A stretch of DNA of 64,000 bases from Bacteroidota bacterium (GTDB lineage: Bacteria > Bacteroidota > Bacteroidia > Flavobacteriales > Flavobacteriaceae). Position numbers and translations under genes: made by a program. The DNA is taken from the NCBI GenBank assembly GCA_027621505.1, contig JAQCBK010000004.1, positions 1 through 64,000 on the forward strand, in the 5' to 3' direction. Position 1 is the stretch's first letter; every line of letters starts with the position of its first letter. This document shows, piece after piece, positions 11,943 to 20,831 of this stretch. Below the pieces are notes generated by a model. The model was not told the origin of the DNA, ran no database searches, and worked only from the letters and a program-made list of their open reading frames with translations.

Positions 11943-13229
11943 TTAAGGCTTAACAGCTTTTTCCATTTTTGATTGAATGGATTCCAATGCCAGGTTTCCC
12001 AAACTTCCCAAATGGGTATGGTAGAGTTTTTTGGAGGCTTGGTAGTCGCCCTTCCCAATGGCTTCCCCCATCTTTTTATAAGCATCTCTAAAAGGCATGC
12101 CTTCTTTGACCCATTCGTTTAAGGTATCCACACTGAAAACATACTGATATTTAGGGTCATCCAAAATATTTTCTCTGACCTGTATTTCCTTCAAGCTAAA
12201 CGTAAAAAGATCCAAACACGCTTTTAGCTCATTGATTGCTTCAATGATGGGGCCTTTGGCGAGTTGCATTTCTCGATGGTAACCAGAAGGCAGATTGGCC
12301 ATTAGTAATGACAACTGATTGGGCAGTCCCTGAAGGAGATTGCACTTGCCTCGGATGAGTTCAAATACATCTGGGTTTTTTTTGTGTGGCATGATACTGG
12401 AACCAGTGGTCAACTCCTCTGGGAAACTGATAAAATTGTGTTCTTGCCCCATATAGAGACAGATGTCCATTGCCATTTTGGAGAGGGTAGCGGCCAAAGC
12501 CGCCATGGCAGAAGCTGTGGTTTTTTCAGCTTTGCCTCTGCTCATTTGAGCGGCAATCACATTGTATTTTAGGTCGGCAAAACCCAAACTTTTGGTGGTG
12601 ACTCTCCTGTCAATCGGAAAAGAACTGCCAAAGCCTGCGGCACTGCCCAATGGATTTTGATCTACAATTTTGTGAGCTGCGTTAAGGAGTGTCACATCAT
12701 CAATCAAGCTTTCGGCATAGGCGGAAAACCACAAACCGAAAGAAGAAGGCATGGCCACCTGAAAATGGGTATAGCCGGGCAAATAATGGTCCTTGTGTTG
12801 ATCGGCCAAATCCATCAACAACTTAAAAAAACTGTGGGTCAGTTCCTTAATTGTTTCAATCTCTGACTTGAGGTACAAATGCAATGCGACCAAAACCTGA
12901 TCATTTCTTGATCTGGCGGTATGTATTTTTTTACCCAAATCCCCGAGTTTTTGGGTCAGTACATATTCTATCTTAGAGTGCATGTCTTCAAACTCGGTTT
13001 CGATGATGAAATTTCCATTTTCGGCGTCGGTTTTTAAATCATCTAGCACACTGACGAGAAGATGGGCTTCCTGTTGGGTTATGATTCTGATTTTGGCCAA
13101 CATCTGCGCATGGGCGATTGAGGCTTGGCAGTCATAGGCGGCCAAGTAGAGATCGTAAGCCCGATCTTTACCCACCGTAAATTGATCGATCTTTTCGTGT
13201 GGGGCTTGGTTTTTTTGCCAGAGCTTCAT
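11943..13229 (-). CDS. argH: Argininosuccinate lyase
   Basis: Last step of arginine synthesis: splits argininosuccinate into arginine and fumarate. 428 aa. Fumarase/aspartase superfamily motifs are all present: TARSRNDQV (about 104-112), GYTHFQ (152-157) and the signature loop GSSIMPHKKNPD (276-287) with the catalytic serine. Slightly shorter than the E. coli enzyme. It is the last gene of the arginine operon, 2 nt after argE. Confidence 0.96.
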   Translation of the reverse strand: MKLWQKNQAPHEKIDQFTVGKDRAYDLYLAAYDCQASIAHAQMLAKIRIITQQEAHLLVSVLDDLKTDAENGNFIIETEFEDMHSKIEYVLTQKLGDLGKKIHTARSRNDQVLVALHLYLKSEIETIKELTHSFFKLLMDLADQHKDHYLPGYTHFQVAMPSSFGLWFSAYAESLIDDVTLLNAAHKIVDQNPLGSAAGFGSSFPIDRRVTTKSLGFADLKYNVIAAQMSRGKAEKTTASAMAALAATLSKMAMDICLYMGQEHNFISFPEELTTGSSIMPHKKNPDVFELIRGKCNLLQGLPNQLSLLMANLPSGYHREMQLAKGPIIEAINELKACLDLFTFSLKEIQVRENILDDPKYQYVFSVDTLNEWVKEGMPFRDAYKKMGEAIGKGDYQASKKLYHTHLGSLGNLALESIQSKMEKAVKP

Positions 13230-13231
13230 GA

Positions 13232-14287
13232 TTAAAGTATTTTTTTTAACAGTTGGATGTAAATTTCAATCGCCTCTTCGATCTCATGGACAAAGATAAA
13301 CTCATTGGCGGAATGGGATCTTGTGGACAGTCCGGGGCCCATTTTTAGTGATGGACATTCCAGCGCTGCCTGATCCGATAGGGTAGGGGAACCATAGGTT
13401 TTTCTCCCCAGGGCAATCCCAGCCTGAACCAATTCGTGATCCATTCCTATGGATGAGGAATTGAGGTGCAAAGACCTGGGTGTCATCTCACAGGGGGCGG
13501 CTTCGGTGAGGATTTTCGCCAATTCCTCATTGCTGTATTGGTCGTTGACCCTAACGTCGACCACCAAATTCACACTGGCAGGAATTACATTGTGTTCTTT
13601 TCCCGCATTGACTTGGGTGACAGTAATTTTGACTTCTCCCAAAAAGTCGGATTGCTTCTCAAGCGAAAAGTTTTGAAACCACTCCAACACCTTGGGGAGT
13701 TTCATGATGGGGTTGTCATCGTTGGGGTGGGCCGCATGACCAGGAGTTCCTTTAATGACTGCATCAAAAACGAGTAAACCTTTTTCAGCGACTGCCAAAT
13801 GCATTTCGGTGGGCTCCCCTACTATGGCCACATCGATTTTGGGCAATTCGGAGAGCAGCCCCCTTAGGCTGTCTTGTCCAGCAATTTCTTCCTCTGCCGA
13901 GGCGGCCATGACCAGATTGTATTTTGGATCTTCAACGTCATAAAAGTGGGTAAACAGGGCGATAAGAGAAACCAATGCCCCGCCAGCATCGTTACTGCCC
14001 AAACCGTATAACTTTCCATTTTCTATTTTGGGTTCAAAAGGATCGTTGGTATAGGCGGTGTTGGGTTTTACCGTATCGTGATGGGAATTGAGCAAAAGGG
14101 TGGGCTTTTGGGGGTCAAAAGCTTTATTTTTTGCCCACAAGTTGTTCCCCCTTCTTTGGTAGGGAATTTGATGATCGTCAAACCACTCTCCAATCCTGTC
14201 GGCCGTTTTATTCTCCTCTTTCGAAAAAGAGGGAGTGGCTATCAAATCCTTTAATAAATCAATCGCTGCTGCGGTTAGCTCATTCAT
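13232..14287 (-). CDS. argE: M20 family N-acylcitrulline/N-acylornithine deacylase (ArgE-type)
   Basis: Zinc-dependent M20 amidohydrolase, 351 aa. Metal ligands: H69 and D71 in NSHHDTV, D100 in GSNDAGGALVSL, and the catalytic/ligand glutamates in SAEEEIAGQDS (about 130-140). By context it removes the acyl group. Because the operon encodes an ArgF'-type enzyme that acts on acylated ornithine, the substrate is expected to be N-acetyl- or N-succinyl-citrulline rather than N-acetylornithine. That is an inference from the pathway, not visible in the active site. It sits 1 nt after argB and 2 nt before argH. Confidence 0.85.
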   Translation of the reverse strand: MNELTAAAIDLLKDLIATPSFSKEENKTADRIGEWFDDHQIPYQRRGNNLWAKNKAFDPQKPTLLLNSHHDTVKPNTAYTNDPFEPKIENGKLYGLGSNDAGGALVSLIALFTHFYDVEDPKYNLVMAASAEEEIAGQDSLRGLLSELPKIDVAIVGEPTEMHLAVAEKGLLVFDAVIKGTPGHAAHPNDDNPIMKLPKVLEWFQNFSLEKQSDFLGEVKITVTQVNAGKEHNVIPASVNLVVDVRVNDQYSNEELAKILTEAAPCEMTPRSLHLNSSSIGMDHELVQAGIALGRKTYGSPTLSDQAALECPSLKMGPGLSTRSHSANEFIFVHEIEEAIEIYIQLLKKIL

Positions 14288-14288
14288 C

Positions 14289-15062
14289 CTATAAAATTAA
14301 AGTAGTGTGTTTCGTTTTCCCGGAGATCATTTCCGGTGCTCCAATTTTGACTTCGGCAACACCGTTTTGCAAGGCGATGAGACAGTTGTCAATTTTGGGG
14401 ATCATCCCAGAGTGAATGACATGCTCCGTTTTTAGTTTTCTGTATTTTTCTGGGGTGATGGTTTCAATCACGCTACTGTTGTCTTCGATATGCTCTAAAA
14501 CACCTTGCTTTTCAAAACAATACCATAGAGAAACCTCAAAATATTGCGATAAACTCTGCGCCAAGGTGGCGGCAATGGTATCGGCATTGGTATTGAGGAG
14601 TTGTCCTTTTTGGTCGTGGGTAATGGCACAACAAACGGGGGTGTATCCTCCTTGAAGTAATAATTGAAAAAAATTGCTGTTCACACCGACTACATCTCCT
14701 ACAAAACCATAGTCAATGTTTTTTATGGGTCTTTTTACCGCTTGAATGGCATTGCCATCCGCCCCTGAAAGTCCTACTGCATTGCAGCCCAATGCCTGTA
14801 ATTGAGCGACGATATTTTTATTAATTTTCCCCCCATAAAGCATGGTAATGATATCGAGGTTTTGAGCATCGGTGATTCTTCTGCCCTCTACCATTTGAAC
14901 AGGGATGTCCATTTTTTCAGCCATCTTAGTGGCTTTTTTCCCCCCTCCGTGCACCAAAATTTTGGGACCTTGCATCTTGGCAAAGTCATTCAGGAAAGAC
15001 TGCAATGCGGTTGCATCTTCAATTACATTTCCTCCAATTTTAACCACAGAAAGTTTATCCAT
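14289..15062 (-). CDS. argB: Acylglutamate kinase (ArgB)
   Basis: Phosphorylates N-acetylglutamate (or the N-succinyl analogue used by some Bacteroidota). 257 aa, amino-acid kinase fold: VVKIGGNVIED at the N-terminus, the glycine-rich LVHGGGKKATKMAEK, GLSGADGNAI, and NTNADTIAATLA for nucleotide binding. It lacks the N-terminal extension linked to arginine-sensitive hexameric forms, so feedback inhibition by arginine is uncertain. The start overlaps the end of argF' by 8 nt. Confidence 0.92.
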   Translation of the reverse strand: MDKLSVVKIGGNVIEDATALQSFLNDFAKMQGPKILVHGGGKKATKMAEKMDIPVQMVEGRRITDAQNLDIITMLYGGKINKNIVAQLQALGCNAVGLSGADGNAIQAVKRPIKNIDYGFVGDVVGVNSNFFQLLLQGGYTPVCCAITHDQKGQLLNTNADTIAATLAQSLSQYFEVSLWYCFEKQGVLEHIEDNSSVIETITPEKYRKLKTEHVIHSGMIPKIDNCLIALQNGVAEVKIGAPEMISGKTKHTTLIL

Positions 15063-16002
15063 TTTCCAATAATTGTTTCAGCACCGCTTGTGCGGAGTAG
15101 ATTCTGTTTTGTGACTGTTGGATTACAAGAGAATTGGGACTGTCTAATACTCCATCAGCTGCTACAATATTTCTTCTGATAGGCAAACAGTGCATGAATT
15201 TGCCATTGTTGGTCAATTTCATTTTTTCAGGGGTAATCATCCATTTGTCATCGGTTCTTAAAATCTGCCCATAGTGCTGGTAGGAACACCAATTTTTGGT
15301 GTAAACAAAATCTGCTCCTTCCAATGCCTCTTTTTGGTTGGTGGTGCATGGGATTCCCTCAGTAATTTCAGGATTGAGGGCATACCCTTCGGGATGGGCA
15401 ATAACAAAATCGGCATCCATTTTTCGCATCATATGGGTAAACGAATTGCCTACGGCATGGGGGAGTGCTTTGGGGTGAGGCGCCCAACTTAATACAACCT
15501 TAGGTTTGTGGGCAGGTTGAAATTCCTTAAGCGTTATTGCGTCTGCCAAGGCTTGTAAAGGGTGAGCCGTTGCACTCTCCATATTGATGATGGGCACAGA
15601 GGCATATTTGGCAAAGCTTCTCAATACTATTTCAGCCTCGTCTTTTTCTTTGTCAGAAAGGGAAGCAAAGGCTCTGATCGCCACCATGTCACAATATTGT
15701 GAAACCACGGCGGCAGCTTCTCTGACGTGTTCCGATCGGAGACCACTCATTTTGGTGCCATCTTCAAATTCCAATGCCCAGGACTCCTGACTGAAATTCA
15801 TGACCATGGTCGGAAGCCCAAGATTTTGGGCTGCCTTTTGGGTACTCAGTCTTGTTCTTAAGCTGGGATTAAAAAACAGCAAGCCCAAAGTTTTGCCCTT
15901 GCCCAAACCTTCTGATTGTGTGGGATTCTTTTTCAAATCCATCGCCAAGTCTAGGGTATGGTTAAAATCGGGTAAATCCGCTAAGGTGATAAAATGTTTC
16001 AT
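15055..16002 (-). CDS. argF': N-acylornithine carbamoyltransferase (ArgF' type)
   Basis: Transfers carbamoyl phosphate to an N-acylated ornithine, giving N-acylcitrulline. 315 aa. Carbamoyl-phosphate site: FFNPSLRTRLSTQKAA (about 43-58) and HPLQALADA. The C-terminal HCLPIRRN matches the ArgF' family (N-acetylornithine enzyme of Xanthomonas, N-succinylornithine enzyme of Bacteroides fragilis) rather than ordinary ornithine carbamoyltransferases. The residue that sets the acyl group in those enzymes (Glu92 for acetyl, Pro90 for succinyl, just before EH) is Ser90 here (GLRSEHVREA), so the substrate is undetermined. It overlaps argD by 4 nt and argB by 8 nt. Confidence 0.92.
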   Translation of the reverse strand: MKHFITLADLPDFNHTLDLAMDLKKNPTQSEGLGKGKTLGLLFFNPSLRTRLSTQKAAQNLGLPTMVMNFSQESWALEFEDGTKMSGLRSEHVREAAAVVSQYCDMVAIRAFASLSDKEKDEAEIVLRSFAKYASVPIINMESATAHPLQALADAITLKEFQPAHKPKVVLSWAPHPKALPHAVGNSFTHMMRKMDADFVIAHPEGYALNPEITEGIPCTTNQKEALEGADFVYTKNWCSYQHYGQILRTDDKWMITPEKMKLTNNGKFMHCLPIRRNIVAADGVLDSPNSLVIQQSQNRIYSAQAVLKQLLENG

Positions 16003-17120
16003 AGTAAATCTTCTAAGGCGTTAAAGAACTTATCGAAATGTTGCTCTTGAACGGTAAGTGGTGGAAGGATTCTCAGCACATTTTTGTTGCTGCTGCCTCC
16101 TGTAAATATATGTTTTTCATAGATAAGCCTTTTTCTCAAAGGCCCTACTTCAAAGTCAAATTCCAATCCCAGCATCAACCCTCTTCCTTTGATTGTTGCC
16201 CCTTTTATTTTTTTGGCTTTACTCCTAAAATAGGCTTCCATCTTTTTGGCATGCTTTTGGAGATCCTCTTTTTTAAGGATTTCCAATACGGCGAGGGAGG
16301 CGGTACAAGCCAAATGATTTCCTCCAAAAGTAGTCCCTAACATTCCGTATTTGGGTTGAACGTCTGGATGAACCAGTATCCCACCTATCGGAAAACCATT
16401 GCCCATTCCTTTGGCCATGGTAATGACATGCGGTTTGATGTGGTTGTTTTGAAAAGCGAAAAAGGTACCCGATCTGGAAAAACCAGATTGCACCTCATCT
16501 GCAATCAAAGCAGTATCGTATTGGTAACATAATTTTTCCATTTTCAATACAAAATCATCCTCGGGCATATCGAGTCCTCCAACCCCTTGTATGGGTTCAA
16601 AAATAACGGCACATACATCGCCTTTTTCCAATTCCTTTTCCAAGGCCTCTGCATCGTTGAAAGGAATAAAAGTTACCTTCTGCTGTTGATTTAGTGGTGC
16701 ATTTATGTTTTGGTTGTCCGTTGCAGCAACAGCCGCGGAGGTTCGGCCGTGAAAAGCATTTTTAAAAGCCACCACTCTTTTTTTACCGGTGTGAAAAGAA
16801 GCCAATTTAAGCGCATTTTCATTGGCTTCAGCTCCAGAGCTACACAGGAATAATTGGTATTCGTGTAAGCAGGATTGCTCCCCGATTTCGTCTGCTAATT
16901 GTTGCTGTAGCGGGTTTTCTACCGCATTGGAGTAAAAAGCAATTTTCTGCAATTGCTCTTGCAATCTATTGACATAATGGGGATGGCTGTGTCCTATGGA
17001 GATCACCGCATGGCCCCCGTACAGATCCAAATATTCCGTTCCCGCCTCGTCGTATACATGGACATCTTTTGCCTTTACGGGGCATACGTCATAGAGTGGG
17101 TAAACGTCAAATAGTTTCAT
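15999..17120 (-). CDS. argD: Acylornithine aminotransferase
   Basis: PLP-dependent class III aminotransferase that turns N-acylglutamate semialdehyde into N-acylornithine. 373 aa, slightly shorter than E. coli ArgD. Visible motifs: YLDLYGGHAVISIGHSHP at the N-terminus, SSGAEANENALKLA, FHGRTSAAVAATD, the PLP aspartate in ALIADEVQSGFSRSG, and the Schiff-base lysine in TMAKGMGNGFPIGG. Ornithine aminotransferases are related, but the length and operon position favour ArgD. It overlaps proC and argF' by 4 nt each. Confidence 0.93.
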   Translation of the reverse strand: MKLFDVYPLYDVCPVKAKDVHVYDEAGTEYLDLYGGHAVISIGHSHPHYVNRLQEQLQKIAFYSNAVENPLQQQLADEIGEQSCLHEYQLFLCSSGAEANENALKLASFHTGKKRVVAFKNAFHGRTSAAVAATDNQNINAPLNQQQKVTFIPFNDAEALEKELEKGDVCAVIFEPIQGVGGLDMPEDDFVLKMEKLCYQYDTALIADEVQSGFSRSGTFFAFQNNHIKPHVITMAKGMGNGFPIGGILVHPDVQPKYGMLGTTFGGNHLACTASLAVLEILKKEDLQKHAKKMEAYFRSKAKKIKGATIKGRGLMLGLEFDFEVGPLRKRLIYEKHIFTGGSSNKNVLRILPPLTVQEQHFDKFFNALEDLL

Positions 17121-17911
17121 TGCATTTTAATTTCATTGATTTTATCAAAAGAGGCCATCAAACCTTTTATGAGTGATGAACTCAGCCCTTGGTGTTCCAT
17201 TTCATTCAATCCCGCAATGGTACATCCTTGTGGGGTGGTGACCTTGTCGATCTCTGTTTCGGGATGGGAGTTGGTTTCAATCAATAGACTGGCCGCCCCT
17301 AAGGCGGTAAACATCGACATCCGCATGGATTCATCCGCATCAAAACCCATCTGTACCCCTCCTTGTGTTGTGGCTCGGATCAGTCGCATCCAAAAGGCTA
17401 TGCCACTGGCACAAACCACGGTAGCGGCTTGCATTTGTTTTTCATCAATATTGATGGTGGTTCCCAAACCGTTAAAGATGGCTTCAGCGATGGCAATCCT
17501 TTTTTCTCCCACTGCATTGGAACACAAACAGGTCATGGATTTTCCAACTGAAATAGCGGTATTGGGCATGCTTCTGATGATGGGATAGTTCGCTCCCACT
17601 TTTTCTTCCATCCGCTGGATACTATAACCGGTAATGGCAGAAATTAATACGTGTTTGTCGGTCAATACATCTTTGATTTCCTCTAGGATCCCGTCAAACT
17701 GTTTGGGCTGAACCGTAAATATGATGATGTCGGCATTTTTTACGGCCTCTTGATTGTCCGATGTCACTTTGACATTGGTGTACTCCTCCCATTTTTCAAT
17801 GGCACTGAGATCTCTTTTGGTCAAGTACAGAGAAGTATAGGTATTGTTATATACCAAACCTTTGGCAATACTCAACCCCAAATTTCCTGATCCGATGATG
17901 GCTATTTTCAT
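17117..17911 (-). CDS. proC: Pyrroline-5-carboxylate reductase
   Basis: Reduces pyrroline-5-carboxylate to proline. 264 aa. Rossmann start MKIAIIGSGNLGLSIAKGL; the family signature lies near the C-terminus (VTTPQGCTIAGLNEMEHQGL), and SMPNTAISVGKSMT is in the middle. Its place inside the arginine operon, overlapping argD by 4 nt, is unusual relative to E. coli. It could link proline supply to glutamate semialdehyde or ornithine-derived pyrroline-5-carboxylate. No proA or proB is in the window. Confidence 0.93.
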   Translation of the reverse strand: MKIAIIGSGNLGLSIAKGLVYNNTYTSLYLTKRDLSAIEKWEEYTNVKVTSDNQEAVKNADIIIFTVQPKQFDGILEEIKDVLTDKHVLISAITGYSIQRMEEKVGANYPIIRSMPNTAISVGKSMTCLCSNAVGEKRIAIAEAIFNGLGTTINIDEKQMQAATVVCASGIAFWMRLIRATTQGGVQMGFDADESMRMSMFTALGAASLLIETNSHPETEIDKVTTPQGCTIAGLNEMEHQGLSSSLIKGLMASFDKINEIKMQ

Positions 17912-17928
17912 TTTGATTCTTTTAAATT

Positions 17929-18888
17929 TTAAAATACACTGGCTTTAAGCTGAAGCCCTAAATCTTCTTCCCATCCCATGATGAGGTTTAAGTTCTGTAG
18001 GGCTTGACCTGAGGCGCCTTTTACCAAATTGTCAATGACTGATGTGATGAGCAGTTGATCCTCGAATTGGTGAAGGTGTATCACACAATGATTCGTATTG
18101 ACCACTTGTTTTAAAGTAAGCTCATTGTCTGAGACATGAGTAAAAGGATGACTTTTGTAATAGGCTTTGTACATTTCAATAGCGTTCTTTACATCTCCTT
18201 CATATGCGGTGTAGCAACTGGCAAAAATCCCTCTTGTAAAATTTCCTCTTTGGGGAAGGAAATAGATTTTGGGATGCTCTAGGGTTTCTCCGATTTCTCC
18301 CAAATGTTGATGGGTAAAAGGTTTGTACCAAGAGACGTTGTTGTTTCTCCAGCTAAAATGTCCTGTGGGGCTTAATCCTACGCCTGCTCCTGTACTTCCT
18401 GTGGTGGCGTTGACATGGACAGCGGAATTGATCATGCCTTCTTTTGCCAAAGGCAATAGGGCCAATTGTATGGCGGTGGCAAAACAACCAGGATTGGCAA
18501 TGGCATTGGCTTTTTCTATCTTTTCCCGCTGGTTTTCTGGTAACCCATATACAAAATCATAATCCTGAAATTGAGCGTCTTTTTTCAATCTAAAATCGTT
18601 GCTCAAATCAATAATAATTGTCTTTTTAGAAAATTGATTTTTTTCCAAAAACCCAGCCGATTTACCATGCCCTACGCATAGGAATACCGCATCTACATCT
18701 GGATTGATGGAAGCGGTAAAATCGGGTGCTCCGCTGCCGAGTAGATCCAAATGGGTATCGTGAAGTGGTGTTCCGGGTCGGGTGGTACTGTATACAAAAT
18801 CCAATTCCAGTGCAGGGTGATGCAATACCAGTCGAATTAATTCTCCTCCAGTATAACCCGATCCCCCTATGATACCTACTTTCTTCAT
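17929..18888 (-). CDS. argC: N-acyl-gamma-glutamyl-phosphate reductase
   Basis: NADPH-dependent reduction of N-acylglutamyl phosphate to the semialdehyde. 319 aa, the short (type 1) form. Rossmann motif GIIGGSGYTGGELIRL, catalytic C135 in IANPGCFATAIQLALLPL, and the STGAGVGLSPTGHF segment. Its ATG overlaps the argG stop (ATGA); 17 nt separate it from proC. Confidence 0.95.
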   Translation of the reverse strand: MKKVGIIGGSGYTGGELIRLVLHHPALELDFVYSTTRPGTPLHDTHLDLLGSGAPDFTASINPDVDAVFLCVGHGKSAGFLEKNQFSKKTIIIDLSNDFRLKKDAQFQDYDFVYGLPENQREKIEKANAIANPGCFATAIQLALLPLAKEGMINSAVHVNATTGSTGAGVGLSPTGHFSWRNNNVSWYKPFTHQHLGEIGETLEHPKIYFLPQRGNFTRGIFASCYTAYEGDVKNAIEMYKAYYKSHPFTHVSDNELTLKQVVNTNHCVIHLHQFEDQLLITSVIDNLVKGASGQALQNLNLIMGWEEDLGLQLKASVF

Positions 18889-20075
18889 TTTTCTTTATTT
18901 ACAAATTGGTATATTTTATTTTGATTGGAGAGCAGTTTAATAAAGCCTTTGGCGTCATCGGCAGACCAACCCTTGTTTTCTTCCCCATAACTTCCAAAAG
19001 CGGCATTCATCAGATCATGATCCGATTCGATCCCATTGAGTTCAAACCTGAAGGGGTGGAGGGTTACAAATACTTTTCCACTTACCGTTGATTGACTGTT
19101 GCTCAAAAAAGCCTCCAAGTCACGCATTACTGGATCTAAATATTGTCCTTCGTGGAGTAACATTCCATAGAAATTACCCAATTGTTCCTTTTGGAACTGT
19201 TGCCATTTGCTCAAAGTGTGTTTTTCGAGCAGGTGATGGGCCTTGATGATCAAAAGAGGAGCAGCGGCTTCAAAGCCAACCCTCCCTTTGATACCGATGA
19301 TGGTATCCCCGACATGGATGTCTCTCCCAATAGCAAATTTTTGGGCTTTTTCTTGTAATTTAATGATGTTGTTGACCGGATTGTCCATTTGGTCATCAAT
19401 TCCTATTAGTTCCCCTTTTTCAAAATGAAGGCTTACTTTTTCAGATTCTCTTTTTTCAAGTTGAGACGGATAGGCGGATTCGGGTAGGCTGTCTTGGGAA
19501 GTCAAAGTTTCTTTACCGCCCACACTGGTTCCCCACAATCCTTGGTTGATGGAGTACTGTGCTTTTTCCCATGAAAGGGCCACCCCATTCTCTTTGAGGT
19601 AGTTGATTTCTGCTTCTCTAGAAAGCTGTTGGTCTCTTATGGGGGTGATGATTTCAATGCCAGGCGCCATGACCTGAAAAATCAAATCGAATCTTACTTG
19701 GTCGTTGCCTGCCCCAGTGCTCCCATGGGCGATGGCCTCTGCTCCAATTTTTTTAGCATAGGTAACAATCTCCATGGCTTGGACAATTCGCTCGGCACTG
19801 ACCGATAGGGGATAGGTATTGTTTTTGAGAACGTTTCCAAACACCAAATATTTGACCACCTTTTCGTAAAAGGAGGACAAAGCGTTGATGGATTGATAGG
19901 TATGGGCCCCCATCTGCAAGGCTTTGGTTTTCATTTCCGCTACCTCATGGGCATCAAAACCTCCGGTATTGACACTGATGGCGTGGACTTCATAACCTTG
20001 CTTGGATAGTTTCATCAAGCAGTAAGAAGTATCCAAACCCCCGCTGTATGCCAATACTAATTTTTTATTTTCCAT
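18885..20075 (-). CDS. argG: Argininosuccinate synthase
   Basis: Condenses citrulline and aspartate with ATP. About 396 aa from the ATG at 20073-20075 (MENKKLVLAYSGGLDTS); the frame remains open further upstream, but homologues start here. The N-type ATP pyrophosphatase P-loop AYSGGLDTS, EAIAHGSTGAGNDQVRF and the GLWGTSVGG region are visible. Sequence between the ATP site and the citrulline site is somewhat divergent from E. coli ArgG, as is typical for Bacteroidota. It follows the GNAT gene by 20 nt and overlaps argC by 4 nt. Confidence 0.94.
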   Translation of the reverse strand: MENKKLVLAYSGGLDTSYCLMKLSKQGYEVHAISVNTGGFDAHEVAEMKTKALQMGAHTYQSINALSSFYEKVVKYLVFGNVLKNNTYPLSVSAERIVQAMEIVTYAKKIGAEAIAHGSTGAGNDQVRFDLIFQVMAPGIEIITPIRDQQLSREAEINYLKENGVALSWEKAQYSINQGLWGTSVGGKETLTSQDSLPESAYPSQLEKRESEKVSLHFEKGELIGIDDQMDNPVNNIIKLQEKAQKFAIGRDIHVGDTIIGIKGRVGFEAAAPLLIIKAHHLLEKHTLSKWQQFQKEQLGNFYGMLLHEGQYLDPVMRDLEAFLSNSQSTVSGKVFVTLHPFRFELNGIESDHDLMNAAFGSYGEENKGWSADDAKGFIKLLSNQNKIYQFVNKEK

Positions 20076-20080
20076 GATAT

Positions 20081-20104
20081 TATTAACTATATTTATTAAT
20101 GTTT
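20081..20104. repeat. 24-bp exact repeat, copy 1
   Basis: TATTAACTATATTTATTAATGTTT, identical to 47273-47296. It covers the last codons and stop of the GNAT gene and most of the GNAT-argG gap. A shorter 14-bp reverse-complement match occurs at 60478-60491. Confidence 0.8.
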
Positions 20105-20620
20105 GGCGTCGTGCAACATGCCGGTACACAAGCACATCGTCCTTTCTGTACGGGTGAGAACGTCATAATTTTTACAGGTCTGACAGCCTTTCCAAAATTC
20201 AGGATCGTCCGTTAGCTCTGAAAAAGATACCGGTCGATATCCCAACTCGAAATTGATTCGCATCACCGCCTTACCAGTGGTGATTCCAAAAATTTTGGCA
20301 TCTGGAAATTTATCTTTGGACAAATCAAATACCTTTTGTTTGATTTGCATGGCAAGTCCTTTTCCACGATGTTTTGGGGAGACAATCAGGCCGGAATGGG
20401 CGACATATTTGCCATGTCCCCAAATTTCAATATAGCAAAACCCTGCAAATTCATTGTCTTCTAAAGCAATGACTGCATTGCCCGTTTCCATCTTTTTACT
20501 GATGTATTCGGGACTTCTTCTTGCGATGCCCGTCCCCCGCATTTTAGCCGACTCCCCTATACAGGTGCTAATGGATTGTGCGTGAATGATATGTTTTGCG
20601 TTGGCAATAACTAGTTCCAT
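20096..20620 (-). CDS. GNAT family acyltransferase, candidate glutamate N-acyltransferase
   Basis: First gene of the arginine operon; 174 aa from the ATG at 20618-20620 (a TTG three codons earlier is possible). The GNAT acyl-CoA site is visible: AHSGLIVSPKHRGKGLAMQIK, with the R/Q-x-x-G-x-G/A type loop. The C-terminus carries a compact cysteine cluster, CQTC then, 14 residues later, CLC, which may bind a metal. No argA, argJ or amino-acid-kinase-type synthase is in the operon although every later step is. A role in making N-acetyl- or N-succinyl-glutamate is therefore the best inference. I recall genetic evidence for a GNAT in this role in other Bacteroidota. An alternative is regulation or protein acetylation. 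Confidence 0.75.
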   Translation of the reverse strand: MELVIANAKHIIHAQSISTCIGESAKMRGTGIARRSPEYISKKMETGNAVIALEDNEFAGFCYIEIWGHGKYVAHSGLIVSPKHRGKGLAMQIKQKVFDLSKDKFPDAKIFGITTGKAVMRINFELGYRPVSFSELTDDPEFWKGCQTCKNYDVLTRTERTMCLCTGMLHDAKH

Positions 20621-20795
20621 TATTGACAAAGTTGATTAGGTTTAAAAAATAAATTGTGATTGATGCAAAGAGAGACTGGACGCACCTGAGTCTCGAATAG
20701 AGAAATATACCCGCTAGGGGCGGCGTGGACGAAGTGGAGCCGAAAAAAAATAATTAACGGTTTCCATAGAATATGTCGAAGCATCTTTCATTTGA
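20621..20795 (-). ncRNA. Candidate structured leader of the arginine operon
   Basis: About 175 nt between the predicted promoter and the first ATG. Inside AT-rich sequence lies a GC-richer block (20671-20742) with three stems: 6-bp GAGACT/AGTCTC (20672-20677 with 20689-20694), CCGC/GCGG (20711-20714 with 20720-20723) and CGGC/GCCG (20721-20724 with 20739-20742). The last two share bases and exclude each other. On the minus strand the T-run lies before, not after, the hairpins, so this is not a simple terminator. It does not match a riboswitch class I can recall. A cis-acting leader or an unrelated conserved intergenic element are both possible. Confidence 0.4.
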
Positions 20796-20831
20796 AATGC
20801 AAATATCCGAATTTTATTTTTTTTGGCAAAA
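20789..20831 (-). promoter_or_regulatory. Putative arginine-operon promoter with operator-like palindrome
   Basis: Minus strand: TTTTG (complement of 20827-20831), 19 nt, then GATATTTG (20800-20807), one mismatch from TAnnTTTG. Directly downstream, where the transcript should start, is the 11-bp palindrome CATTTGAAATG (20789-20799). A repressor such as ArgR could act here. Confidence 0.4.

Follow-up and report, generated by a model that had tools for sequence, protein, structure and literature searches.

The arginine operon and its leader

In this marine bacterium, the window (all 64,000 nt of the DNA analysed here) carries on its minus strand a GNAT-argG operon and its leader (Table 1). The GNAT acetyltransferase returned no NCBIfam match and is a probable N-acetylglutamate synthase. 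Among 80 named loci from related genomes, argG was located 3' of the GNAT gene on the same strand in 76 and tilS was present in only 31, indicating that the leader travels with the arg operon. A plus-strand leader belonging to tilS was considered and rejected: the whole-stretch plus-strand fold gave z = -2.04, but it is the GNAT-argG side that conservation tracks. A search of 60 order-level genomes detected no ArgR, with a Bacteroides control scoring positive.

Table 1 Features of the arginine operon leader and the genes downstream of it
Feature	Positions	Strand	Basis
Predicted promoter, Bacteroidota-type (TTTTG 20831..20827, 19-nt spacer, GATATTTG 20807..20800)	20800..20831	-	sequence
Leader ORF, 25 codons, MKDASTYSMETVNYFFSAPLRPRRP*	20714..20791 (20791..20714)	-	conserved in genus; family enrichment
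Arginine codon cluster at the leader ORF end, CGT CCA CGC CGC CCC TAG	20714..20731	-	sequence
Hairpin P1 (CCGC-CCCUA-GCGG), spanning the final Arg, Pro, and stop codons	20711..20723	-	position conserved family-wide
Hairpin P2, GAGACU-CA-GG-UGCGU-CC-AGUCUC	20672..20694	-	covarying stem, near-invariant GG-UGNGY-CC tip
AU-rich stretch, P2 to GNAT start	20621..20671	-	sequence comparison, same-genus leaders
GNAT acetyltransferase gene, first gene of the operon	20096..20620	-	
argG, argininosuccinate synthase	18885..20075	-	
argC, proC, argD, N-acetylornithine carbamoyltransferase, argB	14289..18888	-	
argE-like and argH-like ORFs, operon continuation	11943..14287	-	named from reading the sequence, no family search

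The first-pass annotation had placed a GC-rich block with several stems between the predicted promoter and the first gene, and this arrangement was upheld: the promoter, called with the Bacteroidota -7 consensus of PMC9723704, lies upstream of the block, and the transcription start expected from its position falls near 20795, which is the upper bound of the earlier annotation. The leader ATG follows about 4 nt further downstream. Such close spacing recurs in the family, where a scan of 94 leaders found a -7 box in 53, ending 6-8 nt upstream of the leader ATG in 47 of these. The spacer core AAAAAAAATAAAATTC (within 20808-20826) was identical in all 16 aligned same-genus leaders, more conservation than a promoter spacer requires.

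A conserved arginine-rich leader ORF

What the earlier reading overlooked, though its stems are real, is that the GC-rich block makes up the 3' end of a 25-codon minus-strand leader ORF. In the same-genus alignment (16 leaders, i.e., our own and 15 others), the start, a frame free of indels, and the Arg-rich end were kept in 16 of 16 while the middle varied, and the block itself shared 73-82% identity in most same-genus genomes. One same-genus leader (L016) has TTG in place of the stop codon, and its ORF extends past P1.

The same type of ORF is strongly enriched across the family. We assembled 123 mutually dissimilar Flavobacteriaceae leaders preceding the same GNAT-argG operon, and 94 of them contained an Arg-rich leader ORF, defined as an ATG-initiated frame of 12-45 codons whose last 12 include three or more Arg; dinucleotide shuffles gave 3.05 on average, and the antisense strand gave 10. 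Codon usage in these 94 ORFs was markedly skewed, with CGC and CGT accounting for 369 of 408 Arg codons (90%), compared to 34% in general ORFs of the window and 27% in those of related loci, both backgrounds being ORFs of at least 250 codons that include some spurious frames. The leader ORF is thus short, conserved, enriched in codons for the amino acid whose operon it precedes, and located in the predicted transcribed leader of that operon.

Most of these peptides end alike, with RRP before the stop in 74 of the 94, which might suggest nascent-peptide arrest at RRP-stop, i.e., direct sensing of arginine or a relative in the manner of TnaC or SpeFL and not by the speed of codon decoding. We consider this improbable. 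The Pro codon can be accounted for by pairing in hairpin P1, which explains part of the shared ending, and many marine relatives read on past it (…RRP-x-GV*); in addition, the remainder of the peptide differs between genera, Arg residues vary in number, and the strong CGY bias points to tRNA sensing instead.

Two hairpins accompany the leader ORF

The three stems proposed earlier within the block are all present on the minus strand, and two of them are conserved. The CCGC/GCGG stem (20723..20711) is conserved and forms hairpin P1. The 6-bp hairpin GAGACT/AGTCTC (20694..20672) is present, strongly covarying, and forms hairpin P2. The CGGC/GCCG pairing can be drawn (20742..20721) and does share 20721-20723 with CCGC/GCGG as described, but it is not conserved, CGGC being replaced by GACTC, AGTTC, AGCTA, and others in the nearest relatives, and the idea of two mutually exclusive stems as the mechanism is therefore not supported.

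In most genera, P1 takes the form GCCC-GUAA-GGGU, with the stop codon inside its loop; 92% of its alignment cells are paired, with covariation confined to one pair and seen there in three sequences. Between P1 and P2 lies a pyrimidine-rich spacer of roughly 11-16 nt. P2 was parsed in 96 of 107 leaders; its stem changes freely (52 variants, including one mis-parse), its bulge is mostly of 1-2 nt, and its tip, GG-UGNGY-CC, is near-invariant. The proposal that leaders of homologous GNAT-argG operons be checked for covariation was borne out for this stem: a model-fitted alignment of 92 loci held 115 cells changed on both sides versus 38.9 in shuffles, and an unfitted alignment held 80 versus 21.2, where the shuffles ignore relatedness, so that these figures are not probabilities, though sliding controls agree. 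No covarying cis partner was found for the N of the P2 loop, nor any alternative pairing of P1 or P2 across the family leaders.

By contrast, single-sequence folding of the minus strand did no better than chance (z = -0.84 for the leader and -0.66 for the block), which on its own would fit a chance structure or a dispersed repeat with no tie to arg genes. The significance of the block comes from comparison, i.e., from identity within the genus, covariation of the 6-bp hairpin, and the lack of dispersed copies. With its single copy, the family-wide ORF enrichment, and the argG link added, conservation refutes this explanation, to which we attach a negligible probability.

The element is single-copy and linked to argG

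The block has no other copies in its own genome and lies with arg genes in other genomes, contrary to the earlier concern that it might be a dispersed repeat. A covariance model of P1 and P2 together (R1) gave strong matches once per genome, at the GNAT-argG leader. Weak R1 matches also occurred outside the family. The two inspected, one a terminator and the other lying away from any arg context, look like chance; the others reach E values down to 8e-5. When P2 alone was searched in 18 genomes, the arg leader ranked first in all 17 that had any match; P2 as a structure shared with other operons was rejected, since the extra matches were few, weak, and chance-like.

The absence of a nameable class was confirmed in that Rfam returned no match in our leader or 20 others, the sole match being a tRNA elsewhere on L264. 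The bulge, the near-invariant tip, and the free stem of P2 might suggest a metabolite-binding RNA, with P2 as a small aptamer that binds arginine or a relative. We judge this very unlikely, as P2 is very small, Rfam gave no match, and the conserved Arg-rich ORF both explains the GC-rich block and already supplies the sensor, so that no aptamer is needed. Of the two functions first suggested, attenuator or metabolite-sensing RNA, the leader is accordingly retained as a cis-acting arginine leader, most likely a sensor of the attenuation type.

Terminators separate the arg leaders from the his leaders

An Arg-rich leader peptide ahead of a biosynthetic operon recalls the classical his/trp-type attenuator, with an intrinsic terminator and an antiterminator, and in a few genomes (e.g., L050 and L244) a U run does follow a long P1. 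However, strict intrinsic terminators were found in only 11 of 187 arg leaders, several of them spurious and our own leader not among them, whereas the same scan, with the His-rich leaders of the same lineage as positive control, found strong intrinsic terminators in all 18. No antiterminator pairing exclusive with a terminator was found in the arg leaders. P2 was rejected as an intrinsic terminator because most genera lack the U tract, and pairing of the spacer with the 5' arm of P2, as an anti-P2, was rejected because its co-evolution did not exceed permutation. With terminators at 11/187 versus 18/18 and no antiterminator pairing, the arg leader is not an ordinary his/trp attenuator, and we regard that design as even less probable here than peptide arrest. 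In the his leaders themselves (L290, from our own genome, C96, and L267-L291), many show a visible His-rich peptide and then a textbook terminator (AAACCCGTTTGA...TCAAACGGGTTTTTTT), and the his operons of this lineage are, as read from sequence, classical attenuation systems.

Proposed mechanism

Comparison supports the conserved ORF, the Arg codon cluster, P1, P2, and the argG link. On this basis, we propose that an Arg-codon leader-peptide sensor controls this arginine operon (probability about 0.8) and probably turns the arginine genes on when arginine runs short; that the leader senses through Arg codons at all is slightly more secure still. Other families of the order carry different Arg-rich leaders before the same gene, which is consistent with this proposal, while the Arg-poor leaders of Flavobacterium, the Chryseobacterium-like genomes that have none, and the covariation of P1 at one pair only speak against it.

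The best reading, drawn from the comparison and from general leader-peptide logic, is that stalling on CGY codons reports the supply of Arg-tRNA. Transcription would begin near 20795, and ribosomes would load almost immediately on the 25-codon ORF ending in the CGY cluster. When charged Arg-tRNA is scarce, a ribosome would stall at the cluster and cover the 5' arm of P1, which would stay open, and RNA polymerase and mRNA would continue into the operon. With arginine in good supply, the ribosome would finish and depart at the stop codon in the P1 loop, P1 would close, and passage into the operon, or its translation, would be reduced. P1 may serve as a hairpin for pausing or weak termination; one idea is a class-I pause.

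For the output step, we tentatively prefer this occlusion of P1 by a stalled ribosome. Few terminators (11/187) and no antiterminator pairing mean that the sensor with P1 and P2 as output does not yet account for that step. An alternative keeps the same Arg-codon sensor and differs in the output step only, which would run through Rho-dependent termination, decay of the RNA, or GNAT translation, with P1 and P2 serving as alternative folds or as sites of processing or binding; we give it somewhat less than an even chance, and taken together these routes are about as likely as P1 occlusion. Such an output would suit leaders that mostly lack an intrinsic terminator, unlike the His-rich leaders of the lineage, and that hold two hairpins at fixed spacing, one with a near-invariant tip. 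A possible hairpin over the GNAT start in the genus points the same way, as do precedents in Salmonella speF orf34 (PMC6386406) and Staphylococcus aureus rbfL (PMC13009471). On the other hand, the start-codon hairpin is weak across the family (10 of 300 permutations were as good), and no alternative pairing of P1 or P2 was found. The 9 nt before the GNAT ATG (20621-20629) showed zero differences among 13 same-genus leaders compared, and a pairing between this stretch and the 5' coding region of GNAT (UUGUCAAUAAU with AUUAUUGCCAA) is possible.

P2, whose loop is fixed, probably serves the output as a site of binding or of tertiary contact. Conceivably, P1 and P2 form a new output module that works without terminator and antiterminator, combining a stop-codon hairpin with a P2 tip bound by a putative factor or by the ribosome, and so govern the arginine operon throughout a family with no ArgR detected, a suggestion that we hold as tentatively as P1 occlusion itself. 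Two further ideas are that AGGUGA might pair with the anti-SD region of the 16S RNA and that a GUAA tetraloop might dock on GG/CC pairs. Translation initiation in the Bacteroidota is, at phylum level, already unlike that of E. coli.

Relation to known systems

Ribosome-mediated attenuation of the his/trp type, including the His-rich leaders described above, resembles the arg leader in having, near the transcription start, a short ORF enriched for the amino acid that the operon makes, followed by RNA hairpins. It differs in the strong intrinsic terminator and antiterminator that most arg leaders lack, and here the Arg codons lie in and beside a stop-codon hairpin while the loop of the second hairpin is fixed. 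Arrest peptides such as TnaC and SpeFL are likewise short leader peptides, some with a Pro-stop end, but the arg leader has no conserved arrest sequence beyond RRP, which RNA pairing partly explains.

In the Salmonella speF leader, the progress of the ribosome over orf34, an ORF with consecutive Arg codons, determines how the RNA folds, and ornithine decarboxylase is controlled via Rho, RNase G, and the ribosome-binding site of speF (PMC6386406); the likeness lies in the Arg-codon leader ORF and, as proposed here, in the coupling of ribosome progress to the RNA fold, and no shared sequence or hairpins were noted. The S. aureus rbfL leader peptide senses arginine via rare AGA/AGG codons and blocks the rbf ribosome-binding site (PMC13009471). 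It shares sensing through Arg codons and differs in codon type (CGY here) and in that the gene start here lies about 90 nt downstream. Closest by lineage is a 2021 report on Flavobacterium psychrophilum, which describes in general terms clues for leader-peptide attenuation upstream of amino-acid operons (PMC9723704), i.e., the same family and the same general idea; its main text, however, does not describe an arg leader, P1/P2, or their conservation, and the Flavobacterium leaders sampled here differ from this element. In the open-access literature, supplements aside, we found nothing beyond that report on an arg leader peptide in Bacteroidota.

We therefore regard the family-wide arginine leader-peptide element of the Flavobacteriaceae, with its apparently unusual output, as real on comparative grounds. 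It offers a possible answer to how arginine genes are controlled in Flavobacteriaceae without a detectable ArgR, and a covariance model and a defined leader are now provided. If P2 is the output element, the leader would represent a leader-peptide mechanism that works without intrinsic termination.

Leaders beyond the main family set

In genomes from other families of the order (L263, L264, L265, and L266), the same GNAT gene is preceded by Arg-rich leader ORFs that are unrelated, e.g., MDSTLRLRRSRRRLRA* and MNLRRRRPVRR*. In genus g142 (probably Flavobacterium; L247-L253), a diverged but conserved leader ORF precedes the GNAT gene (MNKISLHITSLSRTN..TSPEVRMLSL*) and has two or three Arg codons, and in Chryseobacterium-like genomes (genus inferred) no leader was seen before the GNAT gene. 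Lastly, in the very small genomes of family f16 (0.3-0.6 Mb; G344, G353, and others), the GNAT domain lies inside an open frame of ~590 codons, which suggests a GNAT-ArgG fusion.
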